Shown here: in pieces, positions 40,227 to 47,472 of the stretch
Layout: the number at the start of each line of letters is the position of its first letter
Position numbering within the stretch: position 1 is the stretch's first letter
Source: Sphaerisporangium siamense
GTDB lineage: Bacteria; Actinomycetota; Actinomycetes; Streptosporangiales; Streptosporangiaceae
Assembly: GCF_014205275.1 (NCBI RefSeq)
Contig: NZ_JACHND010000001.1
Location: 7,254,001-7,318,000, forward strand
Direction: 5' to 3'
Length of the DNA: 64,000 nt
Position numbers and translations under genes: made by a program
The notes under the pieces: generated by a model
What the model was told of the DNA's origin: nothing
Databases searched by the model: none
The model's input: the letters and a program-made list of their open reading frames with translations, nothing else

Positions 40227-41144
40227 TCAGGGGCGGCGGGTGGACTCGACCAGGCGGTTGAGCTCGGGCAGCACGGCCTCGGACACGGTGATCTTGCGGT
40301 CGATGAGCCCGCTCGCGTGGAAGAGGTCGGCGGCGCGCTGCTGCTCGGCGACGAAGTCCTCGGTGACCGGGTTGAGGCCGAACGGGCGGGTGCGCAGGGC
40401 GTGCTCCCACGCGTCCAGGTCTCCCCCGTCGTCGGCGGCGAACAGCTCGGCCGCGGCGCGCGGGTTCTCGCGGATCCAGGCGTCGGACTCCTGGAGGGCG
40501 CCGACGATCGCGGCCAGCTCCTCGGGGTGGTCGGCGGCGAAGTCGCGGCGGGTGAACCACAGCGAGCGGTGGCTGAACAGCCCGTCGGTGGCGACGAGCT
40601 CGCGGACGGTCGTCTCGCGCTCCACGCGGGTCAGCGCGGGGTAGGAGCCGACCCAGGCGTCCACCTCGCCGTCGAGGAAGAGCTGGGCGGCGTCGCCGTA
40701 GACGTCGACGGGCTCGATGTCCTTCCAGGTGAGCCCGGCGCGGTCCAGGGCGAACAGCAGGAGCGTGGTCTGCCAGGAGCCGTGGCCGAGCGCGACGCGC
40801 CTGCCGGCCAGGTCCTCCAGGGAGTGGACGGGCGAGTCCTGTTTGACGACGAGCCGCCCGTTCTCGTGCCGGGAGCCGGAGACGGCGACGTAGACGATGT
40901 CGTGGCCCTTGCCCTGGGCGGTGACGGGCGGGGTGGAGCCGGTGCCGATGAAGTCGTACCCGCCGTCGAACAGGTGGTCGCCGTGCAGGGACGGCAGGGA
41001 CCTCGTGGGGTCGGGGCGCTCGCCGGCCGGGAGGGAGCGCAGGTCCACCCATTCGACGCCGGGCAGGGAGCGCTCCAGGATGCCGCGGTGGCGCAGCACC
41101 CACAGCGAGTTGTTGTGAGGGAAGTAGCCGACACGGACGCTCAT
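40227..41144 (-). CDS. SsuA-like solute-binding fold protein without signal peptide
   Basis: 305 aa. Has the SsuA/TauA-type scaffold: VRVGYFPHNNSLWVLRHRGI, GYDFIGTGSTPPVTAQGKG, LAGRRVALGHGSWQTTLLLF and a VDAWVGSYPAL loop. ATG 41144 has AAAGG upstream, and the protein begins directly with the first strand: no signal peptide and no cysteine, so it is cytoplasmic and not lipid-anchored. A second such protein, the DszB-like enzyme at 43422, is encoded in the same operon. It could be a substrate carrier or an enzyme of the same fold. Last gene of the seven-gene unit. Confidence 0.8.
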   Translation of the reverse strand: MSVRVGYFPHNNSLWVLRHRGILERSLPGVEWVDLRSLPAGERPDPTRSLPSLHGDHLFDGGYDFIGTGSTPPVTAQGKGHDIVYVAVSGSRHENGRLVVKQDSPVHSLEDLAGRRVALGHGSWQTTLLLFALDRAGLTWKDIEPVDVYGDAAQLFLDGEVDAWVGSYPALTRVERETTVRELVATDGLFSHRSLWFTRRDFAADHPEELAAIVGALQESDAWIRENPRAAAELFAADDGGDLDAWEHALRTRPFGLNPVTEDFVAEQQRAADLFHASGLIDRKITVSEAVLPELNRLVESTRRP

Positions 41145-41198
41145 GTTCGAGCCTTTCTTCACGCGTGGTCGCGGATGGGAGGTCGGGACGGGGGGCGG

Positions 41199-42368
41199 TC
41201 AGGCGCGGGAGTCGGACAGCGCCGCCCCGAACGGGGAGGCCACGCGCAGGTCGTGGCCCTTGAGCAGGGGCAGGACCTCCTCGCCGACGCGGTAGGCCTC
41301 CTCCAGGTGCGGGACGCCCGCGAGGATGAAGGCGCCGACGCCGAGGCCGATCAGCTCGTCCAGCCGCTCGGCGACCTGCGCGTAGCTGCCGACCAGGCCG
41401 AACGCCGGGCCGCCCCGCAGCAGGTGGAAGCCGCCCCAGACGTTCGGGGAGACCTCCAGCTCGCGGTGGTGGCGCACCGGCCAGGACACGAACGACTGGC
41501 TGCGCAGCCAGCCGACCGAGTCGCCGTCCGGGCTGACCAGCGCGGCCGGGTCGACGTGCTCCCAGCCGCGCCTGATCTCGTCCCAGGCGGCCTCCTCGGT
41601 CTCGCGGGCCAGCACGTCGACGCGCACGGCGAACTTCGGGGCGGTGCCGAGTGCGGCGCTGTGCTCGCGCACCTGGCCGAACTTGGCGGCGAGGTCGGGG
41701 AACGGCTCCAGCCAGGACAGGTAGTAGTCGGCGTGCCGGCCCGCCGCCTCGATCGCGGCCTTGGAGGAGCCGGAGAAGTAGATCTCGGGGAACGGCTGGC
41801 GGGCGAGCGGCTCGGGCAGCCCGGCCCCCTCGACCCGGTAGAACCGGCCCTCGTAGTCGAAGGGCCCGCCGTTCCAAACGCCCTTGAGGACGTCGAGGAA
41901 CTCCGAGGTGCGCGCGTACCGGTCATCGTGGTCGACGCGGTCGCCCCACCAGAGCTGGGCGGGGCCGCCCCCGCCGGAGATGACGTTGTAGACGACCCGC
42001 CCGCCGGTCGCCCGCTGCAGCGTGGCCGACATGCGCGCGGCCTGCACCGGGTGCAGGAACCCCGGCTGGTAGGCGATCATGAACCGGTAGGTCGTGGTCT
42101 CGCGGGCGAGCGCGGCGGCCGTGGCCCACGGGTCGTCGGTGAAGGGGAAGGACGGCAGCAGCCCGCCGACGAACCCGGAGACCTCCGAGGCGCGGGCGAC
42201 GTCGGCCATGTGCTCGACGTAGGAGTAGCCGTCGCGGCGACCGTGCCGCACCCCGGGGGCGAGGCTGCCGGGCACGACGGGCGCCCATTCCCCCCTGCTG
42301 GTCACCCGGCGGCGCAGCGACGGCTGGTCGCCGTGGGTGCCGATGCGCCAGTAGATGTCAATGGACAT
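41199..42368 (-). CDS. SsuD/DszA-type FMN-dependent monooxygenase
   Basis: 389 aa luciferase-like (LLM) monooxygenase. MSIDIYWRIGTHGDQPSLRR at the start, TGGRVVYNVISGGG (flavin phosphate site), EIYFSGSSKAAIEAAGRHADYYL and a C-terminal GVGAFILAGVPHLEEA match the alkanesulfonate monooxygenase (SsuD) group, which cleaves C-S bonds with FMNH2 and O2. It overlaps the upstream LLM gene by 11 bases, so translation is coupled. The FMN reductase partner (SsuE) is not in the window. Confidence 0.88.
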   Translation of the reverse strand: MSIDIYWRIGTHGDQPSLRRRVTSRGEWAPVVPGSLAPGVRHGRRDGYSYVEHMADVARASEVSGFVGGLLPSFPFTDDPWATAAALARETTTYRFMIAYQPGFLHPVQAARMSATLQRATGGRVVYNVISGGGGPAQLWWGDRVDHDDRYARTSEFLDVLKGVWNGGPFDYEGRFYRVEGAGLPEPLARQPFPEIYFSGSSKAAIEAAGRHADYYLSWLEPFPDLAAKFGQVREHSAALGTAPKFAVRVDVLARETEEAAWDEIRRGWEHVDPAALVSPDGDSVGWLRSQSFVSWPVRHHRELEVSPNVWGGFHLLRGGPAFGLVGSYAQVAERLDELIGLGVGAFILAGVPHLEEAYRVGEEVLPLLKGHDLRVASPFGAALSDSRA

Positions 42369-43425
42369 GCGCGGTCTCCCTCTCGAACTCCGTCGCGAAC
42401 AGTGGCAGCAGGCGTTCGCCGAGCCGGTAGGCCTCCTCGACGGTGGGCCGGGCCGACAGGACGAACGTCGTGATGCCGAGGTCCCGGTAGGCGCGGATCC
42501 CGGCGGCGACGCCCTCGTAGGAGCCGACCAGGCCGAGCGCGCCCGGCCCCGCGATCCGGTCGAAGCCCGGCCACAACCCGGTCCGCGGGTCCGGGGCGGG
42601 GAAGTCCTCGTCGGCGCCGCCCGCCAGCGCCCACAGGCCGCGGGCGTCGCGCCACGCCTCCTCCTCGTCCTCGCGGGCCAGGACCGGCAGCCGCAGGCCG
42701 CAGGCGACCGCGCGTCCCTCTGCCGCCGCGCGGTCGCCCAGGCCGGCGATCCCGACGTCGAGGTTCTGGCCGGGGTCGAACAGGTGCACGTCGGCGTGGC
42801 GGGCCGACAGCGCGAGCGCGCCGGGTTCGATGCCGCCGAGGTGGACGCGCGGGAAGGGCAGGCCGGCGTTGGGCGGCTGGAATCCGCCGGCGAGCACCTG
42901 GTAGAAGACGCCCTCGTAGGTGAAGCCCTCCTCGTGCCACACGCCCTTGGCGACGGTCAGGAACTCCTCGGCGCGGGCGTAGCGGTCGCCGCCCTGGAGG
43001 AAGTCGCCGTGCGCGCGGGCCACGACCGGGTCGAGGGCGACGTCGATCTGCCAGTCGAGCCGCCCGCCGGTGAACCGCTGCAGGGAGGCGGACAGCTTGG
43101 CCGCGTACACCGGGGTGGCGATCCCGGCGTGGAACCCGGCGATGACGCGCAGGTGCCTGCTGCCGCGCAGCAGCCCGGCCGCCAGCACCAGCGACTCCTC
43201 GCCGTCGGGGTCGAAGGGGACGAGCGCGCCGTCCAGGCCGGCGATCTCGGCGGCCCTGCCGACCTGGGCGATGTGGGCGGACGGCCCGGACACCCCGCCG
43301 CGCGGGTCGGTGACGAAGGCGGGCAGCGCGCGGCGTTCCTCCCAGTCGCCGCGGTCGCGGCGCAGCGGGTGGCGTCCGTCGCCGCGCGTGGGGACGGTGA
43401 CCAGGAACTCGGGCACCGCGGTCAT
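42358..43425 (-). CDS. Second SsuD-like FMN-dependent monooxygenase
   Basis: 355 aa. LLM fold with SASLQRFTGGRLDWQIDVAL, HLGGIEPGALALSARHADVH and TTFVLSARPTVEEAYRLGERL. It is clearly diverged from the other monooxygenase of this operon, so the two probably act on different substrates or steps (for instance sulfone to sulfinate and sulfonate to aldehyde plus sulfite). Its ATG overlaps the stop of the DszB-like gene (ATGA), and it overlaps the next gene by 11 bases. Confidence 0.86.
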   Translation of the reverse strand: MTAVPEFLVTVPTRGDGRHPLRRDRGDWEERRALPAFVTDPRGGVSGPSAHIAQVGRAAEIAGLDGALVPFDPDGEESLVLAAGLLRGSRHLRVIAGFHAGIATPVYAAKLSASLQRFTGGRLDWQIDVALDPVVARAHGDFLQGGDRYARAEEFLTVAKGVWHEEGFTYEGVFYQVLAGGFQPPNAGLPFPRVHLGGIEPGALALSARHADVHLFDPGQNLDVGIAGLGDRAAAEGRAVACGLRLPVLAREDEEEAWRDARGLWALAGGADEDFPAPDPRTGLWPGFDRIAGPGALGLVGSYEGVAAGIRAYRDLGITTFVLSARPTVEEAYRLGERLLPLFATEFERETAHVH

Positions 43426-44459
43426 CGCGCCACCGCCCCGGCGAGGTCGCCGGCCAGGCGCGCGCGGGCCGCAGCGAGCGGCTCGTGCGCCGCCCACGCG
43501 GCGACGTCGACGTCGGCGTCCAGGAAGCCGTGCACGAGCAGGAAGTCCTTCTGGACGCGGAGCAGGTCCAGGCGATGCTCCGACAGGTCGGGGTGCAGGG
43601 AGTGGTGGAAGTCCCCGCGGTAGGCGGTGGCCACCGCGCCGGCGCCGGACCTGGTCTCCGCGGAGAGGATCTCGCGGACCCGCCCGAGGTCGCCGCGCGC
43701 CCACTCGGCCGCGCGCAGCGTCTGGACGAGGAATCCGACGACCAGGTCGGGCCGCTCGTCGAGGAGGCGCTCGTGGACGGTGATGGGCCGCGGCGTGCCG
43801 TTGTTGACGCGGGTGCGCACGTCCGGGTGGGCGTCGAGGTCCACGGCGACGACCGCGCCGATCTCGGCGGCCTGCTCGGCCGCGCGCGCCCCCTTGGCGT
43901 ACACGGCGTCGACCTCGCCGCGCGCCAGCTCGGAGATGCCGGGCCAGGCGAAGGCCCGCGCGCCCGCGTCGCGGCCCACGCTCGGCCTGACCTGGGCGGC
44001 GACCTCGACGAAGGTGACGTCGTCGAGGGTGAGGCCGCCCTGGGACAGCGCGCCCTTGAACCCGTGCAGGGCCATGGCCCTCGGGAAGCTCTTGGCGCGG
44101 GTCTCGGCCCAGCCCGGCAGCGCGACCCGGGCGCCGGCCAGGCCGGCGGCGTTGGCGATCCCGGAGTCGGCGCGGACGAGGATGGACTGCCATTCCTCGA
44201 TCCAGGTGAGGCCGATCAGCCGGGTCGGGGCGCCGGCGGACCGCGCGGCCAGGGCGGGGACGTTGCCGCCCTCGCGGAACAGGCCGAGCAGGCGGTGGTC
44301 GAAGTGGCGCTCGGCCAGCTCGGGCGCCGCGTCCTGCAGGACGCCGATCTCCAGGCCCGCGGCCCGGAACTCCTCGGCGAGCCAGCCCTGGTTGTGGGCC
44401 AGGCCGCTGGCGGTGGGGACGGGGCAGCGGGTGTACCAAAGCTTGTCGACGGAGGTCAT
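43422..44459 (-). CDS. DszB-like sulfinate desulfinase
   Basis: 345 aa, cytoplasmic, binding-protein fold. The N-terminus LWYTRCPVPTASGLAHNQGW resembles the catalytic YSNCPVP loop of DszB (2-(2-hydroxyphenyl)benzenesulfinate desulfinase); Cys12 would be the nucleophile. His52, Arg62 and Gly65 have exactly the spacing of DszB His60, Arg70 and Gly73. TRLIGLTW and ARVALPGWAETRAKSF continue the similarity. Inferred role: release of sulfite from an organic sulfinate made by the neighbouring monooxygenases. ATG 44459 behind GAGGAG. Without biochemical data it could also be a plain SsuA-type binding protein. Confidence 0.78.
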   Translation of the reverse strand: MTSVDKLWYTRCPVPTASGLAHNQGWLAEEFRAAGLEIGVLQDAAPELAERHFDHRLLGLFREGGNVPALAARSAGAPTRLIGLTWIEEWQSILVRADSGIANAAGLAGARVALPGWAETRAKSFPRAMALHGFKGALSQGGLTLDDVTFVEVAAQVRPSVGRDAGARAFAWPGISELARGEVDAVYAKGARAAEQAAEIGAVVAVDLDAHPDVRTRVNNGTPRPITVHERLLDERPDLVVGFLVQTLRAAEWARGDLGRVREILSAETRSGAGAVATAYRGDFHHSLHPDLSEHRLDLLRVQKDFLLVHGFLDADVDVAAWAAHEPLAAARARLAGDLAGAVAR

Positions 44460-44476
44460 GGGACTCCTCGGGTGTC

Positions 44477-45217
44477 TCAGTGGACGGCGGCGGTGACGCC
44501 GAGGTGGGACAGGAACAGGCGGCGGGCGCCGGCGAACTCGGGCGCGTTACGGTCACGGGGGTGGGGTAGGTCGATGGTCCTGTCGACGGCGAGCGCGCCG
44601 TCCCGCAGCACCACCACGCGGTCGGCGAGCCGGACCGCCTCCTCCACGTCGTGGGTGACCAGGACGACCGCCGGGCGGTGGCGTTCGCACAGCTCGGCGA
44701 CCAGGTCCTGCATCTGCAGGCGGGTGAGGGCGTCGAGCGCGGCGAACGGCTCGTCCAGCAGCAGCACCTCGGGGTCGCGCACCAGGGCCCTGGCCAGGGC
44801 CACGCGCTGCGCCTCGCCGCCCGACAGCGTCGCGGGCCACTTGCGGGCGTACCCGTCGAGGCCGACCTCGGCGAGCGCGCGGCGCCCGGCCTCGCGGGCC
44901 GCGGAGGGCAGGCCGAGGGTGACGTTGGCGAGCACCCGCCGGGCGGGGATGAGCCGGGGCTCCTGGTAGACGGTCGTGCGGCGGCGCGCGGCCAGGACGG
45001 TGCCCGCGTCGGGCAGTTCCAGCCCGGCCAGGATGCGCAGCAGCGTGGTCTTGCCGGTGCCGCTCGGGCCGAGCAGCGCGAAGAACTCGCCCCTGCGGAT
45101 GTCCAGGTCGACGCCGTCCAGCACGGTCTTGGCGCCGAACGCCTTGCGCAGCCCCCTGACCTGGACGGCCAGGTCGCCGGCGATCTCGCCGCGCGGCTGG
45201 AAGACGGGCTCGCTCAT
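44477..45217 (-). CDS. Sulfonate/nitrate/taurine-type ABC transporter ATPase
   Basis: 246 aa. Walker A GPSGTGKT, Q-loop TVYQEPRLIP, signature LSGGEAQRVALARAL, Walker B VLLLDEPFAALD and H-loop VLVTHDVEEAVRLADR: a complete SsuB/TauB-type ATPase. The start ATG 45217 overlaps the permease stop (ATGA), so the two are made together. It powers uptake by the permease below, probably of a sulfonate, given the neighbours. Confidence 0.93.
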   Translation of the reverse strand: MSEPVFQPRGEIAGDLAVQVRGLRKAFGAKTVLDGVDLDIRRGEFFALLGPSGTGKTTLLRILAGLELPDAGTVLAARRRTTVYQEPRLIPARRVLANVTLGLPSAAREAGRRALAEVGLDGYARKWPATLSGGEAQRVALARALVRDPEVLLLDEPFAALDALTRLQMQDLVAELCERHRPAVVLVTHDVEEAVRLADRVVVLRDGALAVDRTIDLPHPRDRNAPEFAGARRLFLSHLGVTAAVH

Positions 45218-46098
45218 CGGGCCACCACCTGGCCGCGCCACGGCATGGCCAGCCGCTCGACCACGCGGATGGCGCCGTCGAAGATCAGCCCGAGCGCGGC
45301 GTAGACGAGCACGCACAGCACCATGTAGTCGGGGCGGAAGTACTGCTGGGCGAGCGTGACCAGGTAGCCGATGCCCTCGGTGGCGCCGATCTGCTCGGCG
45401 GCGATCAGGCCGGTCAGCGAGACCGACAGGCTGATGCGCAGGGCCATGAGCACGCTGGGCAGCGCGCTCGGGACGACCACGCCGAGCGCGAGCCGGTGCC
45501 CGCGCAGGCCGAACCCGCGCGCGGCCTCCACGACCTTGCGGTCCACGTTCCTGACCCCCAGATAGGTGTAGGCGTACATCGGGATGGCGGCGGCGACCGC
45601 GATGAGCAGGATCTTGAAGGTCTCGCCGACCCCGAACCACGAGATGAACAGCGGGACGAGCGCAAGGAACGGCACGGCCCGCAGCATCTGCATGGTCGGG
45701 TCGACCAGTTCCTCGCCGAGCGCCGACAGCCCGGCCGCGACGCCGAGCACGAGCCCGAGGCCGCCGCCGGTGAGCACGCCGAGCCCGGCGCGGTGCCCGG
45801 AGGCGAGCAGGTAGTCGGTGAGCTGCCCGGTGGCGGCCAGCTCGCGCAGCGCGCCGAGGACCGCGGACGGCGCGGCGAGCACGTCCGGCGGGATGTGCCC
45901 GCTCGCGGACCCGTACCACCAGGCGGCCAGGAGCAGCAGGGGGACGGAGATCCGCAGCGCGGCGGAGAGGGCCGCGGGGCGGCGGCGGGCGCCGAGGAAC
46001 CTCGGCGTCTCCAGCCCCGCCGCCGCGCCGCCCCGGCCCTCCCGCGGGCCGGGCGCGGGCCGCCGCGCGGGCGGCTCGTGTACCTTCTCGATGGTCAC
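45214..46098 (-). CDS. Sulfonate/taurine-type ABC transporter permease
   Basis: 294 aa, GTG 46098. About 45 polar residues, then six predicted membrane helices (first at LRISVPLLLLAAWWYGSASG) and the EAA loop VEAARGFGLRGHRLALGVVVPSALP that docks the ATPase, as in SsuC/TauC. It forms a homodimeric channel. Start lies 5 bases after the binding-protein stop. Confidence 0.92.
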   Translation of the reverse strand: MTIEKVHEPPARRPAPGPREGRGGAAAGLETPRFLGARRRPAALSAALRISVPLLLLAAWWYGSASGHIPPDVLAAPSAVLGALRELAATGQLTDYLLASGHRAGLGVLTGGGLGLVLGVAAGLSALGEELVDPTMQMLRAVPFLALVPLFISWFGVGETFKILLIAVAAAIPMYAYTYLGVRNVDRKVVEAARGFGLRGHRLALGVVVPSALPSVLMALRISLSVSLTGLIAAEQIGATEGIGYLVTLAQQYFRPDYMVLCVLVYAALGLIFDGAIRVVERLAMPWRGQVVAR

Positions 46099-46102
46099 GG
46101 CG

Positions 46103-47170
46103 TCACCCCGAGGCGGCGGGCGAGGCGGCGCCGGTCGCGGCCTTGAGGTCGAAGAGGACGTCGGCGGGGTCGATGGGCTTGGTCACGACCCCGTATTCGC
46201 GGAACAGGTCGGCCACCGCGGTGATGTAGGCGCCGTCCTCCTTGGTGGCGTACCGGGGGATGTTGGCGTGCTCGGCCGTGTCGATGTCCAGGGCGAGGCG
46301 GGCGCCGGTCACGGCGGTGGGCCCTTGGGTGAGGAAGACGTTCTCGAACTTCTCCGGGGTCTTCCTGGCCTCCTCGGTCAGTTCCTGGAGCACCTCCAGG
46401 TAGACGCGGACGGCCGCGGGCGCGCGGTCGAGCAGTTCCTCGCGGGCCGCGATGATGGTGAGGTCCTTGTCGTCGAGGTCGCGGCCGTGCACGATCACCC
46501 GGGCGCCCTTGGCGACGGCCTCGGGGTAGGCGCGGACGATGGCCCACCAGGCGTCCACCTTGCCGGTGGCGAACGCGGCGGCGCCCTGGTCGGGGTTGAG
46601 GTAGACCCGCTTGACCTGGTCGACGGGGACGCCCGCCTTCTCCAGGGCGAGCAGGAGCAGGTACTCGCCCTTGCCGCCCTTGTTGACGGCGACCTGCTTG
46701 CCGGCCAGGTCCTTCACGGACCTGACGGGGCTGTCGGGCCGCACCACCAGGCCGTCGGTCTGCGGGGCCGCCGGGTCGGTGACGGGGTCGGTGACCGAGA
46801 AGATCCTGATGTCGGGGCTGTTGGCGAGGTAGCCGATGGCGGGCGAGATGGCGCCGGTGAGGATGTTCACCGAGCCGGCGTGGACGGCGTCGACGGTGGC
46901 GGTGAAGGATGCGTAGGAGCCGCCCCACTCGACGGTGGCGCCGACGGCCTTGAGGCGCTTCTCCAGGAGGCCCTCGCGCTTGGCGTAGGCCAGGGGGCCG
47001 GCGTTTCCGGGGTCCTGAAGCTTGAGGACCGCTCCGGAGCCCTTGGCGGCCGCGGGGCCGCCCGCCGCGGAGGAGGTTCCGCAGGCGGTCGCCAGCCCGG
47101 CGACGGTGAGGGCGAGCGCGGCGAGCGCCACGCGCCTGGGACGGGCGTGCGGCCCGGGGGTTTTCCACAT
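46103..47170 (-). CDS. ABC transporter substrate-binding lipoprotein (SsuA/TauA type)
   Basis: 355 aa. Signal peptide with lipobox LATAC (Cys about residue 30), then an SsuA-type binding fold (AVLKLQDPGNAGPLAYAKRE, TGAISPAIGYLANSP, DLAGKQVAVNKGGKGEYLLL). It captures a sulfonated or nitrogenous anion at the outer face of the membrane and delivers it to the permease. First structural gene of the operon; the leader peptide starts about 260 bases upstream. ATG 47170; AGGGA is 10 bases upstream. Confidence 0.9.
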   Translation of the reverse strand: MWKTPGPHARPRRVALAALALTVAGLATACGTSSAAGGPAAAKGSGAVLKLQDPGNAGPLAYAKREGLLEKRLKAVGATVEWGGSYASFTATVDAVHAGSVNILTGAISPAIGYLANSPDIRIFSVTDPVTDPAAPQTDGLVVRPDSPVRSVKDLAGKQVAVNKGGKGEYLLLLALEKAGVPVDQVKRVYLNPDQGAAAFATGKVDAWWAIVRAYPEAVAKGARVIVHGRDLDDKDLTIIAAREELLDRAPAAVRVYLEVLQELTEEARKTPEKFENVFLTQGPTAVTGARLALDIDTAEHANIPRYATKEDGAYITAVADLFREYGVVTKPIDPADVLFDLKAATGAASPAASG

Positions 47171-47364
47171 GATGGCGAGTCCCTAACGACGAGAGCACGA
47201 TGAGAGGACAGACGGGGACCGGTGGCGAACCGGCCGCGGGGCATGGTGACGGAGGCCCCCGGGACAGGGGCGCGGACGTGGTCCTGACGGCGGTTCTGAA
47301 GGGTCGGGAACAGGCGGTGAGAGGCGTCGTCTCCAGCGCGAGGCCCGCGCGAGACGGAACACGT

Positions 47365-47427
47365 TCACTGACAGAGGCTGCTGTCCACGTGCATGAAGTC
47401 GATCGCGCGCCGGACGGTCAAGTTCAC
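47365..47427 (-). CDS. Cysteine-containing leader peptide of the sulfur operon
   Basis: 20 codons from GTG 47427; it ends RRAIDFMHVDSSLCQ. The R-R-x-I-D-x-x-x-V-x-S-S-L-C pattern matches the very short upstream peptides found before many actinobacterial sulfur-assimilation and sulfonate-transport genes, where ribosome stalling or passage at the Cys codon near the end reports cysteine supply. The stop codon lies about 195 bases before the binding-protein gene. No ribosome site is visible before GTG, so it may be translated from a very short leader. Confidence 0.75.
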   Translation of the reverse strand: MNLTVRRAIDFMHVDSSLCQ

Positions 47428-47444
47428 AATCGGCACATTGCCTA

Positions 47445-47472
47445 TATTTCAGGTAGGAAATACGGCAGTCAA
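47445..47472 (-). promoter_or_regulatory. Operon promoter with overlapping palindrome
   Basis: On the minus strand -35 TTGACT (complement of 47467-47472) is followed by an AT-rich -10 region (AAATATAGG). The spacer and -10 contain the inverted repeat TATTTC-N6-GAAATA (47445-47462), a likely operator, possibly for a CymR/CysB/LysR-type sulfur regulator. The leader peptide starts 17 bases downstream. Confidence 0.6.

Follow-up and report, generated by a model that had tools for sequence, protein, structure and literature searches.

What does an operon do in which a relative of the desulfinase DszB is found among the genes of an ATP-binding cassette (ABC) importer and a pair of luciferase-like monooxygenases (LLMs)? 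This question is raised by seven open reading frames (ORFs), g1 to g7, which in the ORF listing all lie on the minus strand at 47170-40227 of a 64,000-nucleotide stretch of the Sphaerisporangium siamense genome (assembly GCF_014205275.1, contig NZ_JACHND010000001.1, positions 7,254,001 to 7,318,000). The whole stretch is called the window below; the genome around it is 8.5 Mb, and all features located in the window are on the minus strand. The most economical reading is import of a compound, its monooxygenation to a sulfinate, and desulfination of the sulfinate to sulfite. With a probability of about 60%, we take the seven genes to be a sulfur-scavenging operon on the chromosome, of the same type as the bds operon of Gordonia terrae, that works in these three steps.

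Adjacent genes overlap by 4, 4, and 11 bases or are separated by gaps of 4, 17, and 36-54 bases. Their Pfam domains, from g1 to g7, are NMT1, BPD_transp_1, ABC_tran, NMT1, Bac_luciferase, Bac_luciferase, and NMT1. These coordinates and this domain order bear out an earlier note on the same DNA, which had described a seven-gene, single-strand operon with overlaps or small gaps. The operon is real and well conserved, though patchy, and it belongs to a kind that has already been reported.

The gene that gives the operon its character is g4 (43422..44459; the 43422 protein). Its Pfam domain is that of NMT1, and its match to DszB, its residues, and its place in a tree point to a DszB-like desulfinase of the BdsA type. 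In DszB, the proton comes from Cys27 with the assistance of His60, and there is an RXGG motif (PMC6100217; this and the other published accounts are cited for the parts of them covered). Residues 12, 52, 62, and 65 of g4 are C, H, R, and G in the DszB register, and the loop is CPVP. The best PDB match of g4 is DszB (2de2, E value 2.2e-19); in a profile comparison with PDB, the E value is 4e-35 for DszB, compared with 0.0027 for the best SsuA-type chain. The catalytic quartet is intact in 39 of 42 aligned g4 rows (window counted) and in 40 of 47 rows of a later locus set, so the residue match is not due to chance. It is also invariant in all 19 rows of alignment A3, a set without true DszB. Three rows of the first set are exceptions (loci are given by their L numbers): L002 has Ala for Cys and His for Arg, L047 has neither the Cys nor the His, and L044 is without aligned data. 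Of the seven in the later set, L100 repeats the gene of L002; the others are L093, L096, L097, L101, and, in both L049 and L050, a single copy.

The tree includes 72 proteins: 34 of g4 type, two true DszB proteins (the solved one and L094), 17 of g1 type, 17 of g7 type, and two solved SsuA-type proteins. A 100/100 branch separates the g4-type proteins and DszB from the g1-type, g7-type, and SsuA-type proteins, with the reservation that the program flagged long branches meeting there and that the end branches of L093 and L095 are long. The g4-type proteins (100/98) and DszB (100/99) form separate sister sets, which leaves g4 outside the DszB clade; it is for this reason that g4 is named "DszB-like". 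The earlier note had read the catalytic residues and the loop in the same way, had called for a tree with DszB and SsuA proteins, and had placed a genuine DszB-type protein inside a transporter and LLM operon. Its residues are found as it gave them, the tree makes g4 a sister of DszB that does not group with SsuA, and PDB match, residues, and tree together uphold the assignment.

S. siamense also has a DszB-like paralogue (L002/L100, at C1:3827221-3828195), in which the catalytic Cys has become Ala and the Arg has become His. The Cys is likewise lost, being replaced by Ala or Arg, in copies of other genomes of the genus (L096, L097, L101, and L047). A g7-like match is found near the DszB-like gene in L101 and L047.

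The two genes after g4 encode a luciferase-like pair. g5 (LLM1; 42358..43425) is a divergent luciferase-like protein (Bac_luciferase, 1.1e-36), and g6 (LLM2; 41199..42368) is an SsuD/SfnG-like flavin monooxygenase, which matches the alkanesulfonate monooxygenase in PDB at 4.1e-65. The residues His11, Cys54, Trp196, Arg226, His228, Arg297, Tyr331, and His333, which we take to be the functional residues of SsuD, were counted in 31 LLM1 sequences (window counted) and in 36 LLM2 sequences, distant single-LLM relatives being among the latter. In LLM1, His11, Cys54, Trp196, His228, and Tyr331 are never kept; Arg226 is kept in 21 of the 31, His333 in 12 (the window not among them), and Arg297 in two. 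In LLM2, Arg226 is kept in all 36, Trp196 and Arg297 in 35 each, His333 in 32, and His11 in 29; Asp replaces His228 in 29, and Cys54 and Tyr331 are never kept. The g6 of the window has W196, R226, R297, and H333, with D in place of H228. Judged by these residues, g5 is a degenerate LLM without most of the SsuD active site and g6 is likely the catalytic LLM of the operon. By the NCBIfam model of SsuD, g6 scores 260.9 bits and g5 158.9 bits, both under the cut-off of 518.2. Of the "two SsuD-type monooxygenases" of the earlier note, the luciferase-like pair stands; the SsuD label is too strong, given scores below cut-off and the loss of most active-site residues from g5.

The same holds for the "SsuABC uptake" of that note: the ABC importer genes are there, and the Ssu label goes too far. 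g1 (46103..47170; 355 amino acids) encodes an SsuA-like, lipoprotein-type substrate-binding protein (SBP), recognized by TIGR01728 and its hydrophobic N-terminus. g2 (45214..46098) encodes an SsuC-like ABC permease (BPD_transp_1, 9.9e-29), and g3 (44477..45217) an SsuB-like ABC ATPase (ABC_tran, 4.2e-28). g7 (40227..41144, alternative start 41162) encodes a leaderless protein of the SsuA fold, recognized by TIGR01728 and the SsuA profile from PDB. Scores are below cut-off throughout: 133 bits for g1 and 156.6 for g7 with TIGR01728 (SsuA family, cut-off 163.5), 194.6 for g2 with the SsuC model (347), and 236.7 for g3 with the model of the aliphatic sulfonates ATPase (395). Against PDB, the g7 profile matches SsuA at 4.1e-37 and DszB at 0.00048. 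The sulfonate contacts of Xanthomonas SsuA are Q36, G68, G86, and S141 (PMC3839906). At these positions, g1 of the window has P, F, A, and K, and g7 has F, G, G, and W. None of the contacts is kept in 17 g1-type rows, and in 17 g7-type rows the first glycine is kept in 16 and the second in all.

The two SBP-type proteins also differ in their N-termini. A hydrophobic N-terminal segment is present in g1 in all 33 loci where the gene is found (13-residue hydropathy 1.7-3.0), and the value for g7 is 0.25-1.24 in 31 of 32 loci; that for L048, 1.70, includes codons ahead of the Met. In a pattern search, g7 starts directly before a conserved RVG-FP motif in 44 of the 50 rows that match g7 strongly. 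In 13 of these 44 (12 distinct genes, as L056 is L085), the preceding stop lies within 13 codons of the start, which leaves no room for a leader. The pattern was missed in six rows, four of which visibly start without a leader (L146 and L150 lay outside the inspection). In the relatives examined, g7 therefore lacks a signal peptide and is predicted to be cytosolic. A higher conservation of g7 than of g4 was considered and dropped, as alignments A2 (74%) and A3 (65%) compare different row sets. Within loci, the mean identity to the window is 70.2% for g7 and 69.3% for g4, g7 being higher in 32 of 50 rows, a few loci counted twice; by this comparison the two are conserved to much the same degree, with no real difference.

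Upstream of g1, a putative leader peptide ORF, VPIVNLTVRRAIDFMHVDSSLCQ-stop (47365..47436), begins 4 bases past a promoter- or operator-like palindromic element, CCTACCTGAAATATAGG (47441..47457). Of 50 upstream regions (window counted), 13 have a match to the strict pattern of the palindrome before the leader ORF. In the S. siamense genome the pattern occurs within one mismatch at a single place, that of the operon, and next at three mismatches; a reversed-pattern control also gives one match. With this single site, the idea of a regulon of the palindrome was dropped, and the element looks operon-specific. The leader ORF is found in 17 of the 50 upstream regions and ends with Cys-Gln-stop, cysteine being the penultimate sense codon. 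Its conservation as a coding sequence is clear: single-base codon differences, as raw counts that ignore the kinship of rows, give synonymous to non-synonymous ratios of 344:360 in frame and of 154:465 and 136:502 in the other frames. In L022 a leader-type element sits immediately ahead of the g1 start. In an eight-gene form of the operon described below (L142-L159), none of the 18 loci matched the one pattern used for the leader ORF.

Cysteine-responsive leader ORFs were reportedly described in mycobacteria by Canestrari in 2020. The actinobacterial leader peptides modeled in NCBIfam (NF042933 and NF042934) resemble the present one in being short ORFs before an operon with a conserved Cys near the end. 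They differ in that the window peptide is below the model cut-offs (8.9 bits of 27, E value 1.1) and that anti-Shine-Dalgarno pairing is unsupported here; a second peptide has no match to these models, and a third reaches 15.9 of 45 and 14 of 27 bits. The region between the leader ORF and g1 (47171-47364) contains inverted repeats rich in G and C. A stem of the GTCTCGCGCG...CGCGC-GAGAC type within it is kept in most of eight aligned relatives, and the repeats may possibly be a terminator or attenuator structure. The sole match to known RNA families is mir-941, which we take to be a chance match, as its E value is 0.088 and its score far below the gathering score.

How could these genes work together? 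The g1 lipoprotein with g2 and g3 would take up an organosulfur compound that is probably anionic. g6, working as a pair with the degenerate g5 and supplied with reduced flavin mononucleotide (FMNH2) by reductases encoded elsewhere, would break a C-S bond, most probably in a sulfone, and leave an aryl or alkenyl sulfinate. g4 would protonate the carbon via Cys12 and release sulfite for assimilation. The leaderless g7 may bind the substrate or an intermediate in the cytosol, and the cysteine-ending leader peptide probably couples expression to the supply of cysteine or sulfur. The route from sulfone or sulfonate to sulfinate to sulfite, which the earlier note had suggested, is plausible. The direct basis of this scheme is the genes, their homology, residues, and order, the tree, and the conservation of the leader ORF; from these we infer every reaction, the order of steps, the substrate, the pairing of g5 with g6, the role of g7, and the regulation. 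A more specific picture is tentative and rather doubtful: two cytosolic proteins of the SBP fold on separate branches (g4 and g7), g7 being a second enzyme or a cytosolic carrier of the reactive intermediate, g5 and g6 a LuxA/LuxB-like pair with one active and one degenerate member, and the leader a cysteine sensor.

Neither SsuE nor SfnB is encoded in the seven-gene operon. Since the S. siamense genome contains 12 flavin-reductase-domain matches and an SsuE-family gene over cut-off (at C1:8307137), a supply of FMNH2 from reductases encoded elsewhere is plausible. About 1 Mb off, a cluster at C1:8304688-8310336 contains an SsuD-like gene, SfnB, the SsuE-family gene, a second SfnB-like gene, and another LLM match. 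By its gene content, this is likely a sulfone or sulfonate scavenging cluster and a source of FMNH2.

That the combination is new or wholly uncharacterised finds no support, as the order is published for G. terrae C-6 and fits peg4799-4806 of Rhodococcus qingshengii IGTS8. In G. terrae C-6, GTC6_01620 encodes an SBP, 01615 a permease, 01610 an ATPase, 01605 a desulfinase (bdsA), 01600 an FMNH2 monooxygenase (bdsB), 01595 an alkanesulfonate monooxygenase (bdsC), 01590 a hypothetical protein, and 01585 an SBP (PMC3868597). By reverse-transcription quantitative polymerase chain reaction, the eight genes are up 29-54 fold with benzothiophene vs. sulfate (Table 1 of the same paper). The order SBP-permease-ATPase-desulfinase-LLM-LLM-SBP is that of the window, while Gordonia has the extra GTC6_01590 before the last SBP, which the window lacks. 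In 18 of 19 related genomes, an aldolase-like gene of class II occupies this position. In IGTS8, the genes up in dibenzothiophene culture vs. sulfate are peg4799 (SsuA), 4801 (SsuB), 4802 (SsuA/DszB), 4804 (SsuD), and 4806 (SsuA) (PMC8557817, Table 1). They correspond to positions 1, 3, 4, 6, and 8 of eight, compared with the seven of the window; peg4800, 4803, and 4805 are off the table, and their identity follows from the numbering. In G. alkanivorans 135, a DszB analogue is reported to be absent (PMC11852219). The operon of the window is, with high probability, of the same kind as G. terrae bds.

The DszABC 4S pathway also shares features with the operon: the DszB catalytic residues, kinship to DszB, and a desulfinase beside flavin monooxygenases. 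In that pathway, DszA is NtaA/DmoA-like and DszC has an acyl-CoA-dehydrogenase-like fold. The operon of the window differs in that a DszC-type gene is absent and neither LLM comes near the NtaA/DmoA cut-off (30.8 and 80.1 bits, cut-off 279.7); its g4 is outside the DszB clade. DszC and SsuE had been said to be missing, and rightly: none of the seven genes is of the acyl-CoA-dehydrogenase type, and SsuE is found outside the operon.

If the operon is of the bds kind, is it a pathway dedicated to benzothiophene or its class of thiophenes? LLM1 would then produce the sulfone, LLM2 would open the ring, and g4 would remove sulfite, as has been proposed for G. terrae bdsABC. The published case for it is that cell extract of E. 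coli with bdsABC, given DszD, reduced nicotinamide adenine dinucleotide, and flavin mononucleotide, makes o-hydroxystyrene from benzothiophene (PMC3868597), and the gene order is the same. However, strains such as IGTS8, whose layout fits, seem unable to desulfurize benzothiophene (introduction of PMC3868597). A soluble compound, rather than a hydrophobic thiophene, would be the better match for an ABC importer with a binding protein, and LLM1 is without most SsuD active-site residues and is luciferase-like rather than of the DszC fold. We hold such a dedicated pathway to be unlikely.

A general Ssu-type scavenging of alkanesulfonates, in which g4 and g7 act only as sulfonate binders and the whole chemistry falls to g6, is quite improbable. 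The nearest named models for g1-g3 and g5-g7 are those of Ssu, and the transporter genes and the SsuD-like LLM are shared with SsuEADCB. The operon of the window differs from it in lacking SsuE, in scoring below curated cut-offs, and in having an extra desulfinase, a second LLM, and a leaderless SBP. Moreover, g4 has the DszB quartet and groups with DszB, g1 has none and g7 only half of the SsuA contacts, and Asp is found for SsuD His228 in 29 of the 36 g6-type sequences.

Several points weigh against a three-step scavenging operon of the bds type as we propose it. The link to G. terrae (KC831580) is by gene order, annotation, and relatives, rather than by direct sequence comparison. Benzothiophene need not be the natural substrate, because IGTS8 has a fitting layout and yet seems unable to desulfurize it in the published account. 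An anionic ligand is a guess, because four of four SsuA sulfonate contacts are lost in g1 and two of four in g7. The quartet losses in seven of 47 rows mean that the wider family should not be uniformly catalytic and that some members should not work like DszB. The operon is patchy: a g4 copy of at least 85% identity (85-96%) is found in four of 10 other genomes of the genus. Finally, attenuation by anti-Shine-Dalgarno pairing finds no support, as its test gives no excess over controls. While RNAalifold on eight sequences pairs the last codons of the leader with the Shine-Dalgarno sequence of g1, both arms are conserved anyway. Duplex energies at 16 of 17 loci (L004 left out, as no start was found) are -19.4 kcal/mol for the own pair, -19.0 for swapped, and -19.2 for shuffled pairs. 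In the single-sequence fold, stability is below that of shuffled sequences (z +1.87): 196 of 200 shuffles do as well or better.

As a conserved but patchy unit, the gene order from the Gordonia and Rhodococcus desulfurization work recurs in soil actinomycetes, in the genera Sphaerisporangium, Nonomuraea, Actinomadura, Streptosporangium, and Planotetraspora. This recurrence is a hint of a shared natural substrate, other than the thiophenes of fossil fuels. The leaderless SsuA-like protein, the degenerate LLM partner, and the cysteine-ending leader peptide have no mention in the parts of the Gordonia and Rhodococcus accounts covered.

Gene order in relatives was recorded in two locus sets, 34 named loci and 40 separately examined regions. 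All seven genes are found in order in 19 of the named loci, 16 exactly and three with extra neighbours; L008 and L015 are cut by contig ends, L017 shows six genes, and 12 are other contexts. The closest named locus is that of Sphaerisporangium album (89%). The 40 regions comprise 18 with an eight-gene order, three with the seven-gene order, four with all seven genes in another order, three without a g4-type gene (true DszB), and 12 other contexts. Import of a ready-made sulfinate, on which g4 acts directly while the LLMs serve another branch (e.g., sulfinate to sulfonate, MsuC-like), has little probability. g4 does occur without the g5/g6 pair (e.g., L034, L035, L090, and L092), but the LLM pair shares an operon with g4, g7, and the transporter in 19 of the 34 named loci and 25 of the 40 regions.

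Matches to g4 at an E value of 0.001 number 11 in 60 relatives and 30 in a 393-genome sample of the class, more than half of the latter weak and partial. In the family of G329, 36 of 251 genomes are matched at 1e-10. Among 21 of these 36 regions examined, 19 are of g4 type with all seven genes in order, and 18 of the 19 have an extra gene between g6 and g7; the other two of the 21, L160 and L161, have true DszB. True DszB genes in genomes of this family are L160, L094, and L161, with 99%, 66%, and 62% identity to the solved protein. In the eight-gene operons of relatives, g4 is 57-63% identical to that of the window.

The extra gene of L089 (12970-13689), the only copy run against Pfam, belongs to the class II aldolase family (PF00596). 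An aldolase-like gene is found inside the eight-gene operons L142-L159, except L147, and in L089. It is also found near DszB-like genes in Streptomyces, Actinacidiphila, Sphingobium, and Burkholderia (L033, L035, L036, L049, and L050). In the S. siamense genome, a search without a positive control gave no match to it at an E value of 0.001. In L048 (a Streptomyces plasmid), L090, L092, and L098, a variant order is found: DszB-like gene, SBP, permease, ATPase, leaderless SBP, and a single LLM. In Microbispora (L024 and L026-L030), the DszB-like gene stands in a different context with a distant ABC transporter and a weak aldolase-like match (29%), and an LLM is present in five of these six loci.

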